Below are positions 21,949 through 33,376 of a stretch of DNA of 64,000 nt, in pieces (the first letter of the stretch is position 1; each line of letters begins with the position of its first letter). The notes under the pieces were generated by a model. The model had not been told where the DNA came from, ran no database searches, and saw nothing but the letters and a program-made list of their open reading frames with translations. The translations under genes and the position numbers were made by a program. This stretch comes from Alphaproteobacteria bacterium (lineage in GTDB: Bacteria; Pseudomonadota; Alphaproteobacteria; Ferrovibrionales; Ferrovibrionaceae): positions 434,001 through 498,000 of the forward strand of contig JAFKFH010000005.1 of assembly GCA_017307375.1 (NCBI GenBank), in the 5' to 3' direction.

Positions 21949-22953
21949 TCACGCGAACGGCAGGGTCTGACCGAGGCCTTGCCGGGCCGCCTTCGCCAGC
22001 AGCGCATGGCCGAGCGCGATATCGCTCAGCGACAGGCCGCGATGCCAGAACAGGATGGTCTCGTCGTCGCGCTCGCGGCCGGTCTTCCTGCCGGCGACGA
22101 TCTGGCCAAGCTCGGCATGCAGGTTGTGCTCGTTCAACTTGTCCTGGTCGACATGCTGGCGCAGCGCGCCGAACGGCAGGCCCTTGCGGCACTGCCCCCA
22201 GTCGTCGACGACCATCTTGTCCATGATGTCGGTCAGCGACAGTTCGACCGCGCTCATCGTGCCATAGGGCACCACGAACGCTCCCTTCTTGATCCACGAG
22301 GTCTTCAGCATCGGCGTCGGCTCGGGCAGGCGCGAGGCCTCGACGATGACGTCTGCGCCCCGAAGACAGCTCTCCCAATCCTCGGTCGCGACGACCTTCT
22401 TGCCGAGGTCCTGCGACAGCTTGTCGGCGAAGCTGTCGCGGCTTTCCTTGCGGCGGGAATGGACGCGAATCTCCTCGAAGTCGAAGAAGTGGTCGAGCAG
22501 CCGCACGTTCCAGTAGGCGGTGCCGCGCGCGCCGATATGCCCCAGCACCTTCGACCCCTTGCGGCCGAGATACTTGCCGCCCAGCGCGGTGATCGCGCCC
22601 GTCCGCATCTCGGTGATCGCGGTGGCGTCGATGATCGCCTTCGGCATGCCGGTCTCGGGGTCGAACAGGTTGAGCACCGCCATCTCGGAGGGCAGGCCCT
22701 GCTTATAGTTGTCGACGAAATCGCCGACGATCTTGACGCCGGCGAGGCCCAACGGCTTGACCACGCCGCGCAGCACGTTGAAGTGGCCCTTGTCCGAACT
22801 TTCCGGGATCAGGTGCATCCGCGGTTCGATTACCGTCTGGCCATTGCCCTGGGCGCGCAGGCCGTCCTCGACCGCGGCCAGGATTTCCTCGTCGGTCAGG
22901 GCCAGCTTCTCGACGTCGTGGCCGTTCAGATAGGTGATCGAAATCGCGGGCAT
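21949..22953 (-). CDS. Ornithine cyclodeaminase/mu-crystallin family protein
   Basis: This 334-residue protein has the family layout: an N-terminal substrate-binding segment (LNGHDVEKLALTDEEILAAV, then GLAGVKIVGDF) and a central NAD(P)-binding fold (LGHIGARGTAYWNVRLL). Members deaminate ornithine, reduce ketimines or iminosuccinate, or dehydrogenate alanine. Its GIGARGTA-like loop differs slightly from the classic GxGxQA (here GARGTA), so assignment to one reaction is unsafe. It is the last gene of the peptide-type ABC operon, starting 2 bases after oppF-like, and probably processes the imported compound. Confidence 0.85.
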   Translation of the reverse strand: MPAISITYLNGHDVEKLALTDEEILAAVEDGLRAQGNGQTVIEPRMHLIPESSDKGHFNVLRGVVKPLGLAGVKIVGDFVDNYKQGLPSEMAVLNLFDPETGMPKAIIDATAITEMRTGAITALGGKYLGRKGSKVLGHIGARGTAYWNVRLLDHFFDFEEIRVHSRRKESRDSFADKLSQDLGKKVVATEDWESCLRGADVIVEASRLPEPTPMLKTSWIKKGAFVVPYGTMSAVELSLTDIMDKMVVDDWGQCRKGLPFGALRQHVDQDKLNEHNLHAELGQIVAGRKTGRERDDETILFWHRGLSLSDIALGHALLAKAARQGLGQTLPFA

Positions 22954-22955
22954 GG

Positions 22956-23903
22956 CTACTCCTGGTCGGTCAGCGGGAAATGGCAGGCGACGTTCTGGCC
23001 CCGGCCGACGGGGCGCAAGTCGGGGGCTTCGGCGCGACAGCGATCCTGCGCCATCGGGCAGCGCGTCTGGAACCGGCAGCCCGGCGGCAGATTGAAGGGG
23101 CTGGGCACCTCGCCCTCGAGGATGACGTGCTTGCGCTTGCGCTCGGGATCGATCACCGGGTTGGCCGAGATCAGCGCGCGGGTATAGGGATGGGCCGGTG
23201 CCCGGAATACAGTGGGGGTCGGTCCGGTCTCGACCAGCTTGCCGAGATACATGACAGCGACACTGTCGGTCACCTTGCGCACGACGCTCAGGTTGTGGCT
23301 GACCATCAGGTAGGTCAGGCCCAGCCGCTGCTGCAGGTCGTGCATCAGGTTGAGCAGGTCGCCCTGGATCGATACGTCGAGGCCCGCAGTCGGTTCGTCG
23401 GCGACGACAAGACGCGGATTCAGGATCAGCGCCCGGGCAATGCCGACACGGCGGGCCTGACCGCCCGATACCTGATGGGGGTAGCGGTCGAGCTGGGCTT
23501 CCTTCAGCCCGATCGCCGACATCAGGTCGAGCACTCGCGGCCAATGGTCCTTGAGCTTGAGGCCGTGGATGACCAGCGGTTCCTCGAGAATGCGGCGGAG
23601 CGTCAGGCGCGGCGACAGGGACGAGGCCGGATCCTGGAAGATCATCTGGGCCTGGGCGCGGAACCACATGCGTTCCGGCCCCTTGAAGCCGGTCACGTCG
23701 CGCCCGTCGAAGCGCACCTGGCCCCGGGTCGGTGCGATCAGGCCGAGCACCACCTTGATCAGCGTGGTCTTGCCCGACCCGCTCTCCCCGACCAGGCCGA
23801 GCGTACCGCCCTGGTCCAGCGTGAAGGTCGCGCCGTCGACCGCATGGACGGTTCCGCCATAGACGACCGAGACGTCATCGATCTCGAGCAGCGGGGCGGT
23901 CAT
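22956..23903 (-). CDS. Peptide/opine-type ABC transporter ATPase (OppF/DppF-like)
   Basis: This 315-residue ATPase has Walker [11 protein letters not shown], signature VSGGQARR, Walker B LVVADEPTAGLD and switch VSHNLSV, plus the C-terminal oligopeptide/dipeptide extension with cysteines (PPGCRFQTRCPMAQDRC) that often binds a 4Fe-4S cluster in OppD/F. It pairs with the adjacent OppD-like ATPase; their genes overlap by 4 bases. The substrate could be a dipeptide, opine or other amino compound. Confidence 0.93.
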   Translation of the reverse strand: MTAPLLEIDDVSVVYGGTVHAVDGATFTLDQGGTLGLVGESGSGKTTLIKVVLGLIAPTRGQVRFDGRDVTGFKGPERMWFRAQAQMIFQDPASSLSPRLTLRRILEEPLVIHGLKLKDHWPRVLDLMSAIGLKEAQLDRYPHQVSGGQARRVGIARALILNPRLVVADEPTAGLDVSIQGDLLNLMHDLQQRLGLTYLMVSHNLSVVRKVTDSVAVMYLGKLVETGPTPTVFRAPAHPYTRALISANPVIDPERKRKHVILEGEVPSPFNLPPGCRFQTRCPMAQDRCRAEAPDLRPVGRGQNVACHFPLTDQE

Positions 23904-24871
23904 GCGAGCACGCAGGCGGCGCGGTGGCCCGGCGCCAGTTCGCGCAGCGGCGGGACGGCCTGGCGGCAGCGCGGCTCGGCCTGGCCGCAGCGGGCGGCAA
24001 AGATACAGGCGGGTTCGAGGTCGAACAGATCGGGGACGTTGCCGGGGATCGAGCGCAGCGCCGTGTCCCCACCATCCTCCTCGCTGATCTCGCAGGACAG
24101 CAGGGCGCGGGTATAGGGATGGCGCGGCGACAGGAAAAGGTCGCGCGACGAGGCCTGCTCGACCACGCTGCCGGCATACATGACCACCACCTCGTCGCAC
24201 AGGGTCGAGATGACGCCGAGGCTGTGCGAGATGAACAGGATCGAGCCGGAGAAATTCTCGCGGATCTGTTCGAGCAGCCGGATGATCTGGGCCTCGATGG
24301 TGACGTCGAGTGCCGTCGTCGGCTCGTCGGCGATCAGCAGGTCGGGTTCGACCAGCAGCGCCATCGCGATCATGATGCGCTGGCGCATGCCGCCGGAGAA
24401 CTGATGGGGATAGGCGGCGATCCGGCGCACCGGATCGGGAATGCCGACCTTGGCCATCATCTCGAGCGCGCGGTCGCGCAACTCGCGCTTCGAGCGGCCG
24501 GGAAACTTGCCGCGCTGGATATCGACCATCTGGGTCTCGATGGTGAAGACCGGGTTCAGCGCGGTCATCGGATCCTGGAAGATCATCGCGACCTTGTTGC
24601 CGCGCACCCTGGCCATGCCGGCGGGGTCGAGGCCAAGCAGGTCGGTGCCGTCCAGCCGCACCTCGCCCGACAGCCGCGACAGATTGGGCGGCAGCAGCCG
24701 CATGATGACGGATGCCAGCGTCGACTTGCCCGATCCGCTTTCGCCGACCACGCCGACGATGCGGTTGCGCGGGATCGTCAGGTTGACCTGGCGCAGCACC
24801 TGGGCGGTACCTCGGGCCGTGGCGTAGTCGAGGTCGAGATTGCGGACCTCGAGCAGCGGACTGGTGGTCAT
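23900..24871 (-). CDS. Peptide/opine-type ABC transporter ATPase (OppD/DppD-like)
   Basis: This protein of about 323 residues has Walker [11 protein letters not shown], signature FSGGMRQR, Walker [13 protein letters not shown] and switch ISHSLGV. Its C-terminus carries the Cys-rich oligopeptide extension ([15 protein letters not shown]). The start MTTSPLLEV is chosen for its match to family N-termini; an ATG six codons upstream overlaps the permease stop and would also be translationally coupled. It works with the OppF-like ATPase and two permeases. Confidence 0.92.
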
Positions 24872-24885
24872 CGTGCCGCCCCCGT

Positions 24886-25722
24886 TCATCGATCGGTCTT
24901 CAGCTTGGGGTCGATGGCGTCGCGCAGCGCTTCGCCGAACAGGGTGAAGCCGAGGGTCGCGAGGGTCAGCATCAGGCCCGCGAAGGCCACCGGCCAGATC
25001 GTCTCGGTCAGGTTGGCATAGCCGTCGTTCAGCAGCGTGCCCCAACTGGCCAAGGGGGGCGGCACGCCGACGCCGAGAAAGGACAGGCCGGCCTCGATGG
25101 TGATGACGACCGGAATGTCCATCGAGGCGAGCACGACCAGCGGCCCCATGATGTTGGGCACGATATGGACCAGCACCAGCCGAGCGCGCGAGGCGCCGAG
25201 CACGCGCTCGGCCTCGAGGAATGGCGCATTCTTCAGCGACAGCACCTGGGCGCGGGCGACGCGCCCGAAATGCGGCAGCAGCGTGATCGAGACGATCAGT
25301 ACGACCTTGCCTAGCCCGGGCCCCAGCAGGGCGACGACCGCCAGGGCGAAGACCAGGCTCGGGAACGACGAGATGATGTCGAACAGGATCAGGATCGCCC
25401 GCTCGACCTCGCGCGGCGCATAGGCCGCGCCGATGCCCATCAGCGTGCCGACGACCAGCGAGACGATGATGGTCGAGACCGCGACCAGCAGCGCGGTCTG
25501 GGTGCCGTAGAGCATCCGGCTGAACAGGTCGCGGCCGAGATGGTCGGTGCCCATCGGGTGGATCCAGGTCGGATCCGAGAAACGGTTGAGAATGTCGAGT
25601 TCGTTGGGATCGTAGGGCGAGATCACCTGGGCGCCGAGGCCCATGATCAGGATCAGCACCACCAGGATCAGCCCGAGCCGGCCGGTCGAGCGGCCCCAGA
25701 TCTGCGCGATGACGCCGCGCAT
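24886..25722 (-). CDS. Peptide-type ABC transporter permease (DppC/OppC-like)
   Basis: This 278-residue membrane protein has the DppC start (a first transmembrane segment then HPMGTDHLGRDLFSRMLYG), five further hydrophobic segments and the ATPase-contacting loop EAERVLGASRARLVLVHIVP. It pairs with the OppB-like permease; the two genes share one base at the junction. Confidence 0.94.
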   Translation of the reverse strand: MRGVIAQIWGRSTGRLGLILVVLILIMGLGAQVISPYDPNELDILNRFSDPTWIHPMGTDHLGRDLFSRMLYGTQTALLVAVSTIIVSLVVGTLMGIGAAYAPREVERAILILFDIISSFPSLVFALAVVALLGPGLGKVVLIVSITLLPHFGRVARAQVLSLKNAPFLEAERVLGASRARLVLVHIVPNIMGPLVVLASMDIPVVITIEAGLSFLGVGVPPPLASWGTLLNDGYANLTETIWPVAFAGLMLTLATLGFTLFGEALRDAIDPKLKTDR

Positions 25723-26693
25723 CAGTGGCCACCGCCGGCGCGCGCCGACTGGCGCATGCGCGGATCGAGCCAGCCATAGGACATGTCGACCAGCAGATTG
25801 GTCAGCACGAACAGCAGGACGACGACCAGCACGCCGGCCTGCACGACGGGATAGTTGCGGGTCAGGATCGCATCGTAGACCAGCTTGCCGATGCCCGGCC
25901 GGGCGAAGATGATCTCGGCGAAGATCGCGCCGCCCAGCAGGCGTCCGATGCCCAGGCCGAGAATGGCGACGGTCGGAATGGCCGCGTTCTTCAGGGCATA
26001 TTTGTAGATGATCTTGGTATCCGACACGCCATAGGCGCGCGCCGTGCGGATATAGGGTTCGCCCATCACTTCGAGCAGCGACGAGCGCACGAGCCTGGCG
26101 ATGTAGCCGACCCAGCCCAGCGCCAGCGACACTGAGGGCAGGATCAGCCGCACCAGCTGGTCGAGATAGTTGCCGGGCTCGCCGGCGCCCAGCACCGGCA
26201 GCCAGTCGAGCCAGATCGAGAAGATCAGCAGCAGGAAGATCGCCACGACGAAATTCGGCATCGCGATGAACGACACCGAGAACACGGCGCCGATGCGGTC
26301 ACCGATCGAATCCGGATGGGTCGCGGCATAGGCGCCGAGCGGCAGGCCGACGAGAATGGCAAGGCCGATCGAGGCGAAGGTCAGGGTGACGGTGAAGGGC
26401 AGCACTTCCATCACCATCGTCAGGATCGGACGACCCGAGATCACGTCGGTGCCGAGATTGCCCTGCAGCACATTGCCGAAGAAGATCGCCAGCCGCCGCC
26501 AGACCGGCAGGTCGAGACCCATCTGCTTGGAAAAGGCGGCCACCGCCTCAGGGGTGGCACGCGGCCCCAGCAGCACGTCGGCCGGATTGCCGGGCACCAG
26601 CAGCGTCAGGCAGAACAGCAGCGCCACCGCGCCGACGATCACCAGGATCGTGGTCAGGAGGCGATTGGCAAGGAAGCGCAACGAAGCTGGCAC
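25722..26693 (-). CDS. Peptide-type ABC transporter permease (DppB/OppB-like)
   Basis: This 323-residue membrane protein begins with the DppB-type segment (LANRLLTTILVIVGAVALLF), continues with a loop carrying DLPVWRRLAIFFGNVLQGNL, and has a conserved IRTARAYGVSD loop for ATPase contact. GTG is chosen because it directly precedes the conserved N-terminus; no in-frame ATG is close. A strong stem-loop lies between it and the binding-protein gene. Confidence 0.93.
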   Translation of the reverse strand: MPASLRFLANRLLTTILVIVGAVALLFCLTLLVPGNPADVLLGPRATPEAVAAFSKQMGLDLPVWRRLAIFFGNVLQGNLGTDVISGRPILTMVMEVLPFTVTLTFASIGLAILVGLPLGAYAATHPDSIGDRIGAVFSVSFIAMPNFVVAIFLLLIFSIWLDWLPVLGAGEPGNYLDQLVRLILPSVSLALGWVGYIARLVRSSLLEVMGEPYIRTARAYGVSDTKIIYKYALKNAAIPTVAILGLGIGRLLGGAIFAEIIFARPGIGKLVYDAILTRNYPVVQAGVLVVVLLFVLTNLLVDMSYGWLDPRMRQSARAGGGH

Positions 26694-26725
26694 GGGCTGG
26701 CATCCATTCCGGGAACGACAAGGGC

Positions 26726-26758
26726 GCCGGCGGCTCGCACGCAGCGCGAGCCGCCGGC
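26726..26758. other. 13-base-pair intercistronic stem-loop
   Basis: GCCGGCGGCTCGC and GCGAGCCGCCGGC pair perfectly around a 7-base loop, 12 bases after the binding-protein stop. No U-run follows, so it is probably not a full terminator; such hairpins often protect the binding-protein mRNA end and lower permease expression. Confidence 0.75.
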
Positions 26759-26770
26759 CACCGGACCGGA

Positions 26771-28324
26771 TCAGGCTTCGCGGAACAGGCCGAGCTGGAG
26801 ATCGTCGCCGTTCGGCAGGATAGCCGGCCGCAGCCACTTCTTCGAGGCGAAGACGTTGACCTCATGGGTCAGCCAGATATAGGCCGCCGACTGGTCCATC
26901 ACCTTCTGCAGCTCGATGTAGAGCTTGGCACGCTCATTGGCGTCGTCGGTCGAGGCCGCGGCGACGTTGAGCTTGTCGAACTCGGGGCTGGCCCAGCGCT
27001 GCCAGTTCCAGACGCCGACCTGCTCGGAGACGAACCACTGGGTCTGGAAGGCCGGATCGGCCTTGCCGCCGAAGCGCTGGATCGACAGGTCGAGATTCTT
27101 GCCCGCGTCGCCCTTGCCGGCCGACCAGAACGTGCCGCCGTCGAGCACTTCGAGGTTCAGCTTGATGCCGAGATTGGCCAGCATGGCCTGCACGACGAGG
27201 CCGGCGGCCTGGAAAGCCGGGCGGTTGAGCAGGGTCAGCTTGCATTCGAAGCCCTTCTCGTGGCCGGCTTCGGCCATCAGCTTCTTCGCCGCATCGATGT
27301 CGCGCTTGTACTTCGGCGCATCGGCCCAATAGCCGAGCAGGCCCGGCGCGATCAGCGAGTAGGCGCGGGTGACCGCGCCGTTATAGGCGGCGAGGATGAC
27401 GCGGTCGACGTCGATGGCGAGCCGGATCGCCTGGCGCACCTTGAGATTGTCGAACGGCGGCTTGGAGACGTTGATGCCGATCCAGACGAAATTGATGGAA
27501 TCGAGCGAGATGACGTCGGTATCCGCCAGCTTCGCCATTTCCTTGGCGGCGGCCGGCTCGATCACGGTGAAGTCGAGCTCGCCCGAGCGGAAGGCGAGTT
27601 CCGCGGTCTTCGGATCGGCGACGGGCTTCAGGATGACTTCGTTGAACGCGACCTTCTGGCCCTTCCACTCGGGATTGGCCTTGAGGATGATGCGCTGGTT
27701 CGGCTCCCACTTCTCGAGGATATAGGGACCCGAGCCGATCAGGCTCTTGGTCGCCTGGTCGCCCAGCTTCTCGTAAGCCGCCTTGGACAGGATCGAACCC
27801 GAGCCGTCCGGCAGGTTGACCAGCCAGATCGCCGGGGCCGGATTCTTCAGGTGGATCTTGCCGGTATACTTGCCGGTGACCTCGACCTCCTTCAGCGCCT
27901 CCCAATCCTTGGCGTATTGGGCCATCTGGCCGTTCGCCATCGGCTTGATGTAGCGCTCGAACGAGAACTTGACGTCCTCGGCGGTCACTTCGCCGTAGCC
28001 GCCATGGAACATCAGGCCCGGCTTCAGCTCGAACTCGATCAGTGTCGGCGAGACCTGGGTGATCGACTTGGCGGCGTCGAGTTCCCACTCGAACTTGCCG
28101 GGCTTGAACGAGATCAGCCCCTGCAGCACCGCGCGCATGACGTTGCCTTCCACGTAGGAAACGCGGTTGGCCGGATCGAGCGACTGGATGTCGCGCATCA
28201 TGCGGACGGTGATGCGCTCGCGGGCGGCCTGGGCGGGGCCGGCGAAAATCGGGAACAAGGCGGCACCGCCGGCGGCGGCAGCCCCCGCCTTCAGCATGGA
28301 ACGCCGTGAGAACTTGCCAGCCAT
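26771..28324 (-). CDS. Peptide-type ABC transporter substrate-binding protein, Tat-exported
   Basis: This 517-residue family 5 binding protein starts with a twin-arginine signal (KFSRRSMLKAGAAAAGGAAL). The mature part has the usual DppA/OppA sequence LDPANRVSYVEGNVMRAVLQ, then AEDVKFSFERYI and a C-terminal YIELQKVMDQSAAYIW. It captures the ligand for the OppBCDF-like transporter that follows. ATG at 28324 has GGGGGAAGA 6 bases ahead; an earlier in-frame start would place the Tat motif unusually deep. The downstream cyclodeaminase-like enzyme and upstream M24 enzyme suggest an amino-compound ligand. Confidence 0.92.
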   Translation of the reverse strand: MAGKFSRRSMLKAGAAAAGGAALFPIFAGPAQAARERITVRMMRDIQSLDPANRVSYVEGNVMRAVLQGLISFKPGKFEWELDAAKSITQVSPTLIEFELKPGLMFHGGYGEVTAEDVKFSFERYIKPMANGQMAQYAKDWEALKEVEVTGKYTGKIHLKNPAPAIWLVNLPDGSGSILSKAAYEKLGDQATKSLIGSGPYILEKWEPNQRIILKANPEWKGQKVAFNEVILKPVADPKTAELAFRSGELDFTVIEPAAAKEMAKLADTDVISLDSINFVWIGINVSKPPFDNLKVRQAIRLAIDVDRVILAAYNGAVTRAYSLIAPGLLGYWADAPKYKRDIDAAKKLMAEAGHEKGFECKLTLLNRPAFQAAGLVVQAMLANLGIKLNLEVLDGGTFWSAGKGDAGKNLDLSIQRFGGKADPAFQTQWFVSEQVGVWNWQRWASPEFDKLNVAAASTDDANERAKLYIELQKVMDQSAAYIWLTHEVNVFASKKWLRPAILPNGDDLQLGLFREA

Positions 28325-28450: not shown

Positions 28451-29647
28451 TCAGATCGTCCGGCCGAGCAACTGGTCGTCGAAACGGTAGCGGCTGAGCG
28501 TTTCGGTACCCGCCTCGGTGACCAGCAACTGATCCTCGAGCTTGACGCCCTGGCCGCTGCTCGCCGAACCGACATAGCTCTCGACGCAGATGACCATGCC
28601 GGGCTCGACGCAGCCCGCCAGCGGATAGGGCTTGCCGGGCTCGATATGGGGAATATTGGGATGTTCGCCCGAGAGCCCCAGGCCATGCCCGACGCAGTAA
28701 TAGCGGCTCTGTCGGTGCTCCTCCGGCACCGGCCAGGCGCGGGCCGCGATATCGGCGAAGGCCACGCCGGGCCGGATCAGATCGGCGTTCCAGGCCAATT
28801 GCTCGCGCGCCCGGCCGTAGAGCATGCGTTGCTCGCCACCGGGCCGTCCGCCACCGACGCGGAAAGTGCGTGAGAAATCCACGGCATAGCCGGCGTAGCC
28901 GGTAACGTCCGTATCGAAGCAGATCAGGTCGCCCGGCTCGACCCGGCGCTCGCCGGCTTCACGGAAGTAGGGAAACGTTGCCGATCCGCTTTGCAACAGC
29001 CGGGTCGAGACGTAGTGGCCCCCGCCGGCGATGAAGCGGCGATGGAATTCGGCCCAGATCTCGACTTCGGCCAAGCCTGGGCGGATCGCCGCCTCCAACT
29101 CGCCGGCCGCCCGCTCGACCCGGGCCACCGCCTCCCGGATATAGGGCAGTTCGACCGCCAGCTTGATTCGGCGCGCTGCCGCAAAAACGGCATCCGCATC
29201 GCTCAAGGAGATACCGCGGGCGCGCAGCGCATCGACCGTATGGAACGGCAACCGGTCGATGCCCAGCCGCCGCTCGCCCGGCGCGTGCTCGGCCATGGCG
29301 GCGGCAATAGCCGCGGCGAAGCGCGCCGCGGCCGCGGCCGGCTCGCCCCCCGAGGAGACATGGTCGAGGCCTTCCGCCTGGCGGATGTCGTCGATCGTCG
29401 GCAGGCCGGCCGCCAGATGCGCACAGCCGCGGAAATCGTAGAGGATCGACGGGCCGTCGGCGAACATCAGCAGATAGCGCGCCGGGGTGCGCATGCTCCA
29501 GACACTCATGTTGGTCGCGCCGGTCGCGTAGAGAATGTTGACAGGATCGACGATGACCAGGGCCGGGCAATTGGCCCGGCGCATCATGTCGCGCACGCGG
29601 GCGGCACGGGCGAGCAGCAGATCGGGGGAGACGGACGAGAAGCTCAT
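28451..29647 (-). CDS. M24-family metalloenzyme, DddP-like subgroup
   Basis: This 398-residue protein has the creatinase/aminopeptidase two-domain layout. Metal ligands are readable as Asp245, Asp247 (FDTD), Asp257 (DFSRTF), His321, Glu356 and Glu371 (KLEDQ). The spacing 10/64/35/15 equals that recalled for the DMSP lyase DddP and differs from aminopeptidase P. Sequence around NILYATGATNMSVW and TRLLQSG is also DddP-like. However, the position of DddP's catalytic Asp (6 residues after His) is Gly327, so DMSP cleavage is doubtful. It is divergent from a LysR gene and lies upstream of the peptide ABC operon. Xaa-Pro peptidase is the cautious label. Confidence 0.85.
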   Translation of the reverse strand: MSFSSVSPDLLLARAARVRDMMRRANCPALVIVDPVNILYATGATNMSVWSMRTPARYLLMFADGPSILYDFRGCAHLAAGLPTIDDIRQAEGLDHVSSGGEPAAAAARFAAAIAAAMAEHAPGERRLGIDRLPFHTVDALRARGISLSDADAVFAAARRIKLAVELPYIREAVARVERAAGELEAAIRPGLAEVEIWAEFHRRFIAGGGHYVSTRLLQSGSATFPYFREAGERRVEPGDLICFDTDVTGYAGYAVDFSRTFRVGGGRPGGEQRMLYGRAREQLAWNADLIRPGVAFADIAARAWPVPEEHRQSRYYCVGHGLGLSGEHPNIPHIEPGKPYPLAGCVEPGMVICVESYVGSASSGQGVKLEDQLLVTEAGTETLSRYRFDDQLLGRTI

Positions 29648-31120: not shown

Positions 31121-31849
31121 TCAGCTGCCCCGCTTCATGAAGCGGCCGCCCAGGCGATAGCGGGCGCCGGGATAGAGCAGCCGGGCCGCCGAGATGATCT
31201 GCCCGTTCGACCAGGTGCGGCGGCGGATCAGCAGGCAAGGCTCGGTCTTGTCGATCTGCAGGTGCTTGCGCTCCCACGGTTCGGCCAGCACCGCCTCGAT
31301 GATGTGTTCGCCTTCCGACAGCGGCGCCTGCTGCATCAGGTAGTGATGCGGCGTCACCCGCGCCGGATCGATCTCGAGATAACGCGGTACGGCGGCCGGG
31401 TTGACCCAGCGATCCTCGAGCTGGATCGGCACCTCGTTCTCGAGATTGGTCAGGACCGTATGGTAGAGCTGGGTGCCCGGCATCACGCTGAACTGGCTGG
31501 CGACGTCGGCCGGCGCCTCCTCGACCTGATGCCAGATCACCTCGGCACGATGCTCGTGCCCGCGCTCGCGGATCTCGTCGGCGATCGAGCGAATCTCCAT
31601 CAGCGGCGCCTGCGGCTTGGCACCGGCCACGAAGGTGCCGACCCCATGCACCCGCACCAGCATCCCTTCCGACGTCAATTCGCGCAGGGCGCGGTGAACG
31701 GTCATCCGGCTGATGCCGAGATCCCGGACCAGTTCGTTCTCCGACGGAATCTTGTGGTCGGGCCCCCAGGCCCCGCTGGCGACGTTCTGCACGATCAGTT
31801 GCTTGACGCGCTGGTAGAGCGGGGCCGGACCATCGTCGAGAACAATCAT
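31121..31849 (-). CDS. GntR-family regulator, HutC/FarR subfamily
   Basis: This 242-residue regulator has an N-terminal winged helix (PLYQRVKQLIVQNVASGAWG, then ENELVRDLGISRMTVHRAL) and a C-terminal UTRA ligand-binding domain (about residues 90-235). Its overall sequence, including PQAPLMEIRSIADEI, is very close to histidine-utilisation repressors, which respond to urocanate. It follows the ammonia-lyase-like gene 29 bases downstream on the same strand. The palindrome ahead of that gene is its likely operator. Confidence 0.9.
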   Translation of the reverse strand: MIVLDDGPAPLYQRVKQLIVQNVASGAWGPDHKIPSENELVRDLGISRMTVHRALRELTSEGMLVRVHGVGTFVAGAKPQAPLMEIRSIADEIRERGHEHRAEVIWHQVEEAPADVASQFSVMPGTQLYHTVLTNLENEVPIQLEDRWVNPAAVPRYLEIDPARVTPHHYLMQQAPLSEGEHIIEAVLAEPWERKHLQIDKTEPCLLIRRRTWSNGQIISAARLLYPGARYRLGGRFMKRGS

Positions 31850-31878
31850 TTTCCGCGGACTCCTTCGATCGCCCTTGT

Positions 31879-33327
31879 CTATACCAAGGGCGCAGCGGGG
31901 GCGAGGTCCTGAAAGGTCGCAACCGCCGGGCCAAGGTCGAAAGGCACCTCGCCTTCGCGGCCGATCGGCAAAAGCGGCGTCAGCGCCTCGGCGGCGGCGC
32001 GCAGGCCATGTCCCAGACCGGCAGGTTCCAGGCCGCGGCGGCGAATCGCCCAGCTGGCGACGATCGCCTCGATCGTGACCGCAACCCAGGCAGCCCCGGC
32101 CTGGCGCTCGCCCTCGGTCACCGCGACCGGGGCAAGGCCCGCGACATCCTCGACGCCATCGCAGATCTGACCCCGGTAGAGGGTGGTGACCGGCTGGGCC
32201 GCATGGGTTGCCGCGGCAAGCTTGGCTGTGGCGATATGGGCGATATTGAGGAACTGGACCCCGCCGCTCGCCCCGGCCTCGGCGGCGAGCCCGACCGGCA
32301 AGCCGGAGAATTGCGGCCATTGCAGCTTGTGCACGCGCTCGTTGCCTGCCTGGAGCGCCTTGGCGATCGCCAGCCGCACCGCATCGAGCGACAAGGTCAA
32401 CAGCGTGCTTTCCATGCTGCCGTGGGACACCGGCCGCCGGGCCTCCAGATCGATCACCGGGTTGTCGACGACCGCGTTGAGCTCGGCTTCCCAGATGCCC
32501 CAGGCCCAGCCCAGAGCGGCATAAAGGGCACCGTGGATCTGGGGCACGCAACGGAAGGACAGCGGGTCCTGCAGGAAGCGCGGCTCGCCCGAATGCCAGA
32601 GGGCGCTGCCCTCCAGCAGCCCGCGCAGATGATGGCCCGCCGCCCGGTGCCCGGGCTGCGGGTGCGCGATCTCGACGGCCGCGCTCCAGGCCCCGGGATT
32701 GCCGCGGAGGCCTTCGAGCGAGAGGGCCGCCGCAAGGTCGAGGGCACCGAGCAGCCGGCGACACTCCAGAAGAAACAGCGCGCCGTGCCCCAGCGTCAGG
32801 CTGTTCGAATTGAGCAGCGACATCGCTTCCTTCGGCCCGAGTTCCCGGCCCTCCAGCAGCGGCAGGGCCGCCTGCGACAGCGCGACGATATCCGACGCGC
32901 CGACCGAGCAGCCGAGGCGGACCGGCGGCAGGTCGGCGCCCGCCAGCCGCTCGACCAGCGCCGACACCAGCTCGGGCCGCACCCCGGACATCCCCGTGGC
33001 GAACTGATTGAGCTGCACGCCCAGGGCCGCGCGCAGCACCGCTTCGCCAGCCGCTTCGCCGGGGGCGAAGCTCGCATGGGCGGTGAGGACCCGGCGATTG
33101 AACGTCGCCATCTCGGCCGGCTGAAGGGCATAGTCCTTTTGCGAGCCAAAGCCGGTAGTGATTCCGTACGACGGTTCGCCGCGCGTCACCATGTCGTCGA
33201 CAACCGCGCGCCCCGCTTCGATGCGGGACCACGCGCCGGGGGCGATGCGCACGGCGGCACCGGCGGCGATCCGCCCCACGGCCTCCAGGGTGAGCCCCCG
33301 ACCGTCGACCTCGACCGCCTCGACCAT
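31879..33327 (-). CDS. Histidine/aromatic ammonia-lyase homologue with Ala-Ser-Asp in place of the MIO triad
   Basis: This 482-residue protein is clearly a HAL/PAL-family member: YGITTGFGSQ (Tyr54), PKEAMSLLNSNSLT, SFRCVPQIHGAL and AELNAVVDNPVI. These lyases form the MIO cofactor from Ala-Ser-Gly. Here the sequence reads CSVGASDIVAL: Ala144, Ser145, Asp146. The usual HGGNFHG-type segment is also altered (VSHGSMES). It may lack MIO, form a variant cofactor, or have another role. ATG has GAGGAG 8 bases ahead. No hutU, hutI or hutG is nearby, so histidine breakdown here is unproven. Confidence 0.85.
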   Translation of the reverse strand: MVEAVEVDGRGLTLEAVGRIAAGAAVRIAPGAWSRIEAGRAVVDDMVTRGEPSYGITTGFGSQKDYALQPAEMATFNRRVLTAHASFAPGEAAGEAVLRAALGVQLNQFATGMSGVRPELVSALVERLAGADLPPVRLGCSVGASDIVALSQAALPLLEGRELGPKEAMSLLNSNSLTLGHGALFLLECRRLLGALDLAAALSLEGLRGNPGAWSAAVEIAHPQPGHRAAGHHLRGLLEGSALWHSGEPRFLQDPLSFRCVPQIHGALYAALGWAWGIWEAELNAVVDNPVIDLEARRPVSHGSMESTLLTLSLDAVRLAIAKALQAGNERVHKLQWPQFSGLPVGLAAEAGASGGVQFLNIAHIATAKLAAATHAAQPVTTLYRGQICDGVEDVAGLAPVAVTEGERQAGAAWVAVTIEAIVASWAIRRRGLEPAGLGHGLRAAAEALTPLLPIGREGEVPFDLGPAVATFQDLAPAAPLV

Positions 33328-33362: not shown

Positions 33363-33376
33363 GTTGTCTAGACAAC
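33363..33376. promoter_or_regulatory. 14-base palindrome GTTGTCTAGACAAC, candidate HutC-type operator
   Basis: A perfect palindrome lies 36-49 bases before the ammonia-lyase ATG, just upstream of a TATAAC -10-like box (33355-33360 on the minus strand). Its position suits repression by the HutC-type regulator encoded downstream in the same operon. Confidence 0.65.

Follow-up and report, generated by a model that had tools for sequence, protein, structure and literature searches.

The window, a stretch of 64,000 nucleotides, contains on its reverse strand a gene for a PF00221-family lyase (positions 31879–33327; 482 amino acids), and the next gene downstream on the same strand encodes the histidine utilisation repressor HutC (31121–31849). 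The PF00221 fold of the lyase was indicated by the family profile (E 2.3e-85), by an AlphaFold model (pLDDT 89.6, pTM 0.92) and by a fold search, in agreement with an earlier note on this DNA that had described the family fold as kept. The same note had given the lyase a HutC-type repressor of its own, and this was confirmed: HutC reached 299.9 bits against TIGR02018 (cut-off 220) and nothing else encoded in the 7.54 Mb genome passed this cut-off, the runner-up scoring 113. Two HutC-type, operator-like sites (no strand assigned) accompany the gene pair. One is a perfect palindrome, GTTGTCTAGACAAC (33363–33376), located 35 bp before the lyase start, with its 12-base core 36 bp before it; the other, TTGTCTATACCA (31875–31886), has one mismatch, lies 25 bp before the hutC start and overlaps the lyase stop codon.

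Three further features occupy the same strand: an OCD/mu-crystallin family dehydrogenase gene (21949–22953; PF02423), an ABC transporter block (22956–28297) with two ATPases, two permeases (assigned by clustering or by eye) and an SBP_bac_5 binding protein (Pfam), and a gene for a DddP-like M24 protein (28451–29647) that scored 277 bits against NF043017, below the cut-off of 600, and is 34–36% identical to four M24 proteins encoded beside lyases of the clade described below. The dehydrogenase and the M24 protein are possible associates of the lyase, and we infer a tie for the transporter block located between them; all three may operate in the same metabolism as the lyase.

The shortened MIO loop

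Alignment with Pseudomonas putida histidine ammonia-lyase (HAL), seven other enzymes of the ASG type and further relatives revealed that the loop of the window lyase (SVGAS-DIVALSQ) is one residue shorter than that of HAL (SVGASGDLAPLAH). The codons for S-V-G-A-S-D-I, residues 141–147, are found at 32887–32907 on the reverse strand. The tripeptide Ala144-Ser145-Asp146 does occupy the MIO position, as the earlier note had stated, but Asp146 is not a replacement for the glycine: it aligns to HAL Asp145, and the residue deleted is HAL Gly144, the MIO glycine. A simple Gly-to-Asp substitution was ruled out by this alignment. In a 33-row alignment of the clade (A2), the Gly of the Ala-Ser-Gly triad from which MIO is formed is missing in all members and the Ser in 11, which have Ala at the position equivalent to Ser143; exactly two residues separate the loop Gly from the Asp in every member, versus three in HAL. 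Since Ser and Gly are both missing in some relatives, MIO should not form in those, and since the remaining ones have the same short loop, it is very unlikely there too.

The rest of the active site is largely preserved. Tyr54, Lys64, Asp146, Gln253, Arg259, Met305 and Glu393 are invariant in A2, His84 is kept in 28 of the 33 rows and Asn173 in 29. Tyr54, His84, Gln253, Arg259 and Glu393 are equivalent to HAL Tyr53, His83, Gln277, Arg283 and Glu414, respectively, so that the Tyr loop is retained, as previously claimed. The alteration claimed for the HGGNFHG-type segment was also found, the window lyase having SHGSMES in place of the GGNF-type segment and all 33 proteins having Met at the position of HAL Phe329. 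Against the HutH equivalog model TIGR01225, the window lyase scored 194 bits, far below the cut-off of 539. Judged from sequence, the MIO-less status of this protein is well supported: it is very probably a MIO-less lyase, and the folded protein would be expected to lack the cofactor. The proposal that it represents a cofactor-altered branch of the family is thus supported: the MIO glycine is gone from the loop, and 11 of 33 members are without the serine as well. The alternative proposal of a non-lyase branch found no support, because the catalytic positions are conserved and because ergothionase, the closest relative with a solved structure, is itself a lyase that expels trimethylamine.

Relatives, phylogeny and genomic contexts

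A contig-level genome scan with the window protein alone as query gave no match; repeated with a three-member alignment (A1), it yielded 35 loci. A2 comprises the window protein and 32 of these loci. Of the three omitted, L026 has a lyase gene that the gene finder did not call, L036 has a shorter frame and L058 is a fragment that does not include the loop; the short loop is also seen in L026 and L036. The 32 relatives with the identical deletion show 39–63% identity to the window lyase. An ASG-type HutH with the Gly kept is also present at 8 of the 35 loci. The clade is sparse. A search of 18 genomes of the same order gave no match below 1e-40 besides the window's own gene, and one of 385 genomes of the same class gave matches below 1e-42 in five, the window's own included; clade members besides the latter came from two genomes (L008, 52% identity; L009, 41%), L010 belongs to another branch and L011 does not figure in the tree. 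The L011 gene (L021:8797–10002) is a PF00221 gene with an in-frame stop codon, the open part of which is without the MIO-loop segment; its neighbours, an MttB-family gene and sarcosine-oxidase-type genes, correspond to methylated-amine metabolism.

The tree was built from 50 rows with the loop columns excluded, and included the window lyase and 29 of its 32 relatives in A2, the near duplicates L042, L054 and L056 being omitted. In it, 42 MIO-less rows were split from 8 MIO rows at 100/100, the MIO side consisting of HAL-like rows only. The 30 clade rows formed a single group (100/100), in which the window lyase was placed with L027 and L031 (100/99). Treponema denticola ergothionase grouped with L016 and L017 (100/98), and these joined the ErtA-type rows at 92/93; "ErtA-type" is our own label, with no family model, for L080, L081 and the second lyase of L032. 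Closest to the clade stood L012 (93/79, long branch), from an ergothioneine-type operon, but L013, L080 and L012 were flagged as long rows and their positions are therefore unsure. The earlier note had regarded a known characterised group with Ala-Ser-Asp as telling against its case. This applies in part: a characterised MIO-less group does exist, since ergothionase is a known MIO-less trimethylamine-lyase, but the window clade appears in the tree as a branch separate from it. Two record titles look wrong: the lyase of L027 ("Mycobacterium sp. KBS0706") very closely resembles the Inquilinus lyase, and L024 (a "Mesoflavibacter" MAG) has a gene order in common with L018, from the class of the window.

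The genes accompanying the clade lyases are varied. Using context labels that rest on one tested member each and were extended through BLAST clusters, we found a HalD-like 2OG oxygenase, a DddP-like M24 gene or both at 10 of the 35 loci (eight with each), Rieske oxygenases at 5, and UbiD, UbiX and dimethylglycine-dehydrogenase-like genes at 4 each; several loci had none of these. All five members of the Rieske group have Glu at the His84 position and four have Asp at that of Asn173. These varied partners and active-site changes indicated that substrates probably differ across the clade. At L025, L028, L032 and L046 the clade lyase is followed by UbiD, with UbiX too in the last three, suggesting decarboxylation of an aryl acrylate product at these loci.

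Several MIO-less lyases outside the clade were also observed. Dehydrogenases of the OCD subfamily, 71–78% identical to that of the window, occur beside or near such lyases in L014 (L014:8390–9394), L017 (L017:8705–9709) and L020 (L020:867–1868), whose lyases belong in the tree to other branches than the window clade. The genes of L014, L015 and L016 (plasmid records) are annotated hutH, histidine ammonia-lyase, and their loops are without the MIO Gly; that of L016 (S. meliloti plasmid pCpl) is located about 2.7 kb from an annotated dimethylsulfoniopropionate lyase gene, and ABC transporter genes are present. A compact ergothioneine-utilisation-like operon in a Deinococcus sp. plasmid (L012:378–7428) contains a MIO-less lyase, amidohydrolase pieces, an ErtE over the cut-off, and thiourocanate-hydratase-like and thiohydantoin-desulfurase-like genes, both below their cut-offs. 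An ASG-type HAL-like gene (L082:6090–7700) lies near a thiourocanate hydratase over the cut-off and a gene that is desulfurase-like by eye; this MIO-bearing enzyme may act on a thiohistidine rather than on a betaine.

HutC-type sites and hut genes

The consensus of HutC sites in Pseudomonas is given as TGTA-N2-TACA, and a low level of urocanate abolished protection at one HutC site described in the same source (PMC12977541). Compared with this Pseudomonas consensus, the core before the lyase (TGTC-TA-GACA) matches at 6 of 8 positions, with two symmetric departures. If one mismatch at most is allowed, chance would give 0.04 matches in the window. Exact copies of TTGTNTANACAA occur at three places in the 7.54 Mb genome, versus one for a reversed control: before the lyase, before the operon of a second MIO-less lyase, and in a region that has neither hut nor lyase genes. 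When one mismatch was tolerated, the count rose to 19 places, versus 18 for the reversed pattern, so the site count by itself proves nothing and only the positions of the sites speak for them. Six of these sites are nevertheless found no more than 60 bp upstream of called starts, namely those of the lyase, hutC, hutH, hutU-hutI, hutG-hutF and the operon of an SDR gene and the second lyase. The lyase and the hut promoters of this genome thus have a putative operator in common by sequence match. Of 3000 random 210-base stretches drawn from the window, 25 reached 9/10, a number that counts stretches over both real sites. The second ASG-type HutH gene of the genome had no HutC-type site upstream (best 5/10). 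None of 13 other clade promoters reached 9/10 site positions, three reaching 8 (L024, L035 and L037), and the closest relatives, L027 and L031, had no site before the lyase itself.

Twelve of the 19 sites were examined in their genomic context. One, C20:216039, directly precedes the called operon of an ABC transporter whose binding protein is SsuA-like, C13:105601 is about 100 bp in front of a gene weakly assigned to a phosphonate-type binding protein, and C35:43799 is beside a GntR-type gene and genes that are phosphonate-related by eye. C20:212919 falls within a called gene, and C38:337967 and C38:338002 precede no hut or lyase gene, in a stretch that is phage-like or toxin-antitoxin-like by eye only. 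The second MIO-less lyase (L003, contig C13) has an exact site 57 bp before its operon. The related lyase of Martelella (L014) comes after a gene that carries the annotation hutC, and an exact site is present there too.

The earlier note had seen no other hut genes. This is correct for the window, which contains neither a second PF00221 gene nor a urocanase, but hutH, hutU, hutI, hutG and hutF are located elsewhere in the genome and were confirmed by family models, with two ASG-type HutH genes over the cut-off of their model. The single urocanase of the genome is a true HutU (948 bits; 683 against the thiourocanate hydratase model, cut-off 930). Among the 35 relatives, 8 have hut genes within the fetched stretch, in three separate subclades of the tree, and the other 27 have none there. 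In six of the eight the lyase directly follows hutU, with gaps of -1 to 65 bases as called, and the HutU neighbours in L019, L031 and L041 are true HutU proteins, below the thiourocanate-hydratase cut-off. If a HutU gene occurs once per 4.5 Mb, the 0.55 Mb of loci should contain about 0.12; counted as four lineages, the chance of this context is about 8e-6, a rough figure in which relatedness is only partly allowed for. These results indicated that the lyase probably forms urocanate and belongs to the hut regulon. The link to urocanate is fairly well supported, and the argument from hut genes fits best for the window, Inquilinus, Nisaea, Aestuariivirgaceae and L051.

Candidate reaction and comparison with known systems

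In HAL, a His and a Glu serve the imidazole, a Tyr takes the beta proton and an Arg holds the carboxylate, while MIO turns ammonia into a good leaving group. Without MIO, a neutral or secondary amine leaves poorly. Since the imidazole-binding residues are retained in the window lyase, a histidine betaine was inferred as its substrate, and hercynine (N-alpha-trimethylhistidine), the plain quaternary amine derived from histidine, is the simplest such compound. In the reaction that we propose, Tyr54 would remove the beta proton, Arg259 would hold the carboxylate, His84 and Glu393 would hold the imidazole, and the quaternary trimethylammonium group would leave unaided, giving urocanate and trimethylamine. 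The electrophilic MIO, needed elsewhere in the family for ammonia, would be dispensable with such a leaving group. HutU and the later hut enzymes would then consume the urocanate formed, which, being the inducer of HutC, would also derepress the lyase-hutC pair and the scattered hut operons. Regulation and relatives together suggest that trimethylamine is stripped from a histidine betaine, feeding ordinary histidine breakdown. A cofactor-free trimethylamine-lyase on the HAL scaffold that converts hercynine, as the most likely substrate, into urocanate has in our estimation about an even chance of being the right description, and the odds on hercynine as the substrate stand equally balanced. 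Histidine betaine has been reported in a cyanobacterium (PMC3826126). A limited open-access literature search found no hercynine lyase, and no EgtD, the enzyme of hercynine synthesis, was found in the window genome, so that hercynine would have to be of external origin. Against this reading, the OCD and DddP-like neighbours are unexplained by a step from hercynine to urocanate. Hercynine might instead be the substrate of the second HutC-linked MIO-less lyase. That protein has different active-site residues, and a separate substrate is likely for it.

Other readings were weighed against hercynine. That the window lyase is an ergothionase, converting ergothioneine into thiourocanate and trimethylamine, draws on the T. 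denticola enzyme being its best PDB match with the short loop and Lys64 in common, on L025 and L026 adjoining ErtD- and ErtE-type genes of ergothioneine utilisation, and on the placement of L012 next to the clade. An ergothioneine pathway was sought in the window genome, but the only urocanase there is the true HutU and a search for ErtD at E 1e-60 gave no match; regulation by HutC is a pointer to urocanate, and T. denticola ergothionase falls with L016/L017 and the ErtA-type rows, outside the clade. Furthermore, L032 holds a clade member and another MIO-less lyase in one stretch, the latter 61% identical to the L081 lyase beside a thiourocanate hydratase, so the two probably differ in substrate. 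We consider this reading improbable. Somewhat less doubtful, though still unlikely, is a MIO-less C-N lyase acting on a different substituted histidine (an S-oxidised or ring-methylated betaine, or an N-alkylated compound of opine or metallophore type) giving urocanate or a close analogue. In its favour are the two MIO-less lyases of this genome, which both have HutC-type sites yet differ in their active-site residues, so that hercynine by itself would not explain the pair, the nearby OCD with its counterparts beside three other MIO-less lyases, and the peptide-type binding protein and DddP-like gene next to this OCD. On the other hand, neutral or secondary amines are expected on chemical grounds to be poor leaving groups without MIO, the OCD block lies about 9 kb from the lyase, and none of the 19 HutC-type sites is in front of it.

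A catalytically dead HutH paralogue with a regulatory or structural role was judged very unlikely. A MIO-deficient PAL mutant is described as having lost hydroamination activity on two test substrates (PMC12535398), but the conservation of Tyr54, Lys64, Gln253, Arg259 and Glu393 throughout the clade, and of Asn173 in most of it, and the existence of a characterised enzyme with the same deletion, ergothionase, argue for activity. A spare copy could in principle decay in a genome with two ASG-type HutH genes over the cut-off; nevertheless, a decaying ordinary HutH gene, or a sequencing error that hides the Gly, has practically no chance of explaining the data and is already refuted. The open reading frame is intact, the short loop is common to all 33 members in spite of their divergence, which excludes such an error, and the HAL-type genes at the same loci keep SVGASGD.

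Returning to betaines as substrates, we propose tentatively, at slightly less than even chances, that the MIO-less members of PF00221 form a broad class of onium lyases, the loss of MIO being paired with a change from ammonia to trimethylamine or another onium leaving group. Different branches would have come to serve histidine betaine (hut, the window gene), ergothioneine (Ert) and other betaines (at loci with Rieske and dimethylglycine-dehydrogenase-like, DMSP-lyase-like or UbiD partners). Since the only HutC over the cut-off in the window genome is encoded with the MIO-less lyase, a betaine would be an entry point to the hut regulon. Should MIO-less genes of the kind annotated hutH prove to encode betaine lyases, a number of such annotations would be wrong, bacteria would have an overlooked route from histidine betaine to glutamate and an overlooked source of trimethylamine, and the family would offer a clean test of the purpose of MIO, which would be dispensable once the leaving group is quaternary.

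Among known systems, ergothionase is the closest. The absence of MIO and the release of trimethylamine are described for this enzyme in PMC13405746, which cites Maurer 2019. T. denticola ergothionase (PDB 6s7j, 6s7q) was the best PDB match by sequence (2.2e-34), scored 1.1e-85 in a profile search versus 1.6e-64 for P. putida HAL, and came first in the fold search (6.4e-25, TM 0.87), HAL being next (3.3e-23). The window lyase and ergothionase have in common the PF00221 fold, the one-residue loop deletion (SIGEG-D in ergothionase), the active-site Tyr, Arg, Gln, Glu and His, as well as the Lys in the Y-G loop. They differ in that identity is only about 25%, they occupy separate branches, and the window lyase has Met305 and Asn173 where ergothionase has Phe and Ser; moreover, HutC adjoins the window lyase, its relatives have hut contexts, and no ergothioneine pathway was found in its genome. 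The ErtA-type lyases also have a MIO-less short loop (SIGC[AG]-D), but they belong to a different branch, and L080 and L081 have Ser in place of Met305 and an ergothioneine operon with thiourocanate hydratase. With HutH, the MIO-dependent HAL, the window lyase has in common the fold, most catalytic positions and, within this genome, a HutC-type site; unlike HutH it is without the MIO glycine, and its TIGR01225 score is far under the cut-off. Finally, the second lyase of the same genome (L003, L022:10149–11633) resembles it in the short loop (SIGAG-D) and in the HutC-type site, but is 32% identical, has no Lys64, has Arg and Val at the positions of His84 and Asn173, and is encoded in a called operon with an SDR gene and an SsuA-like ABC transporter.
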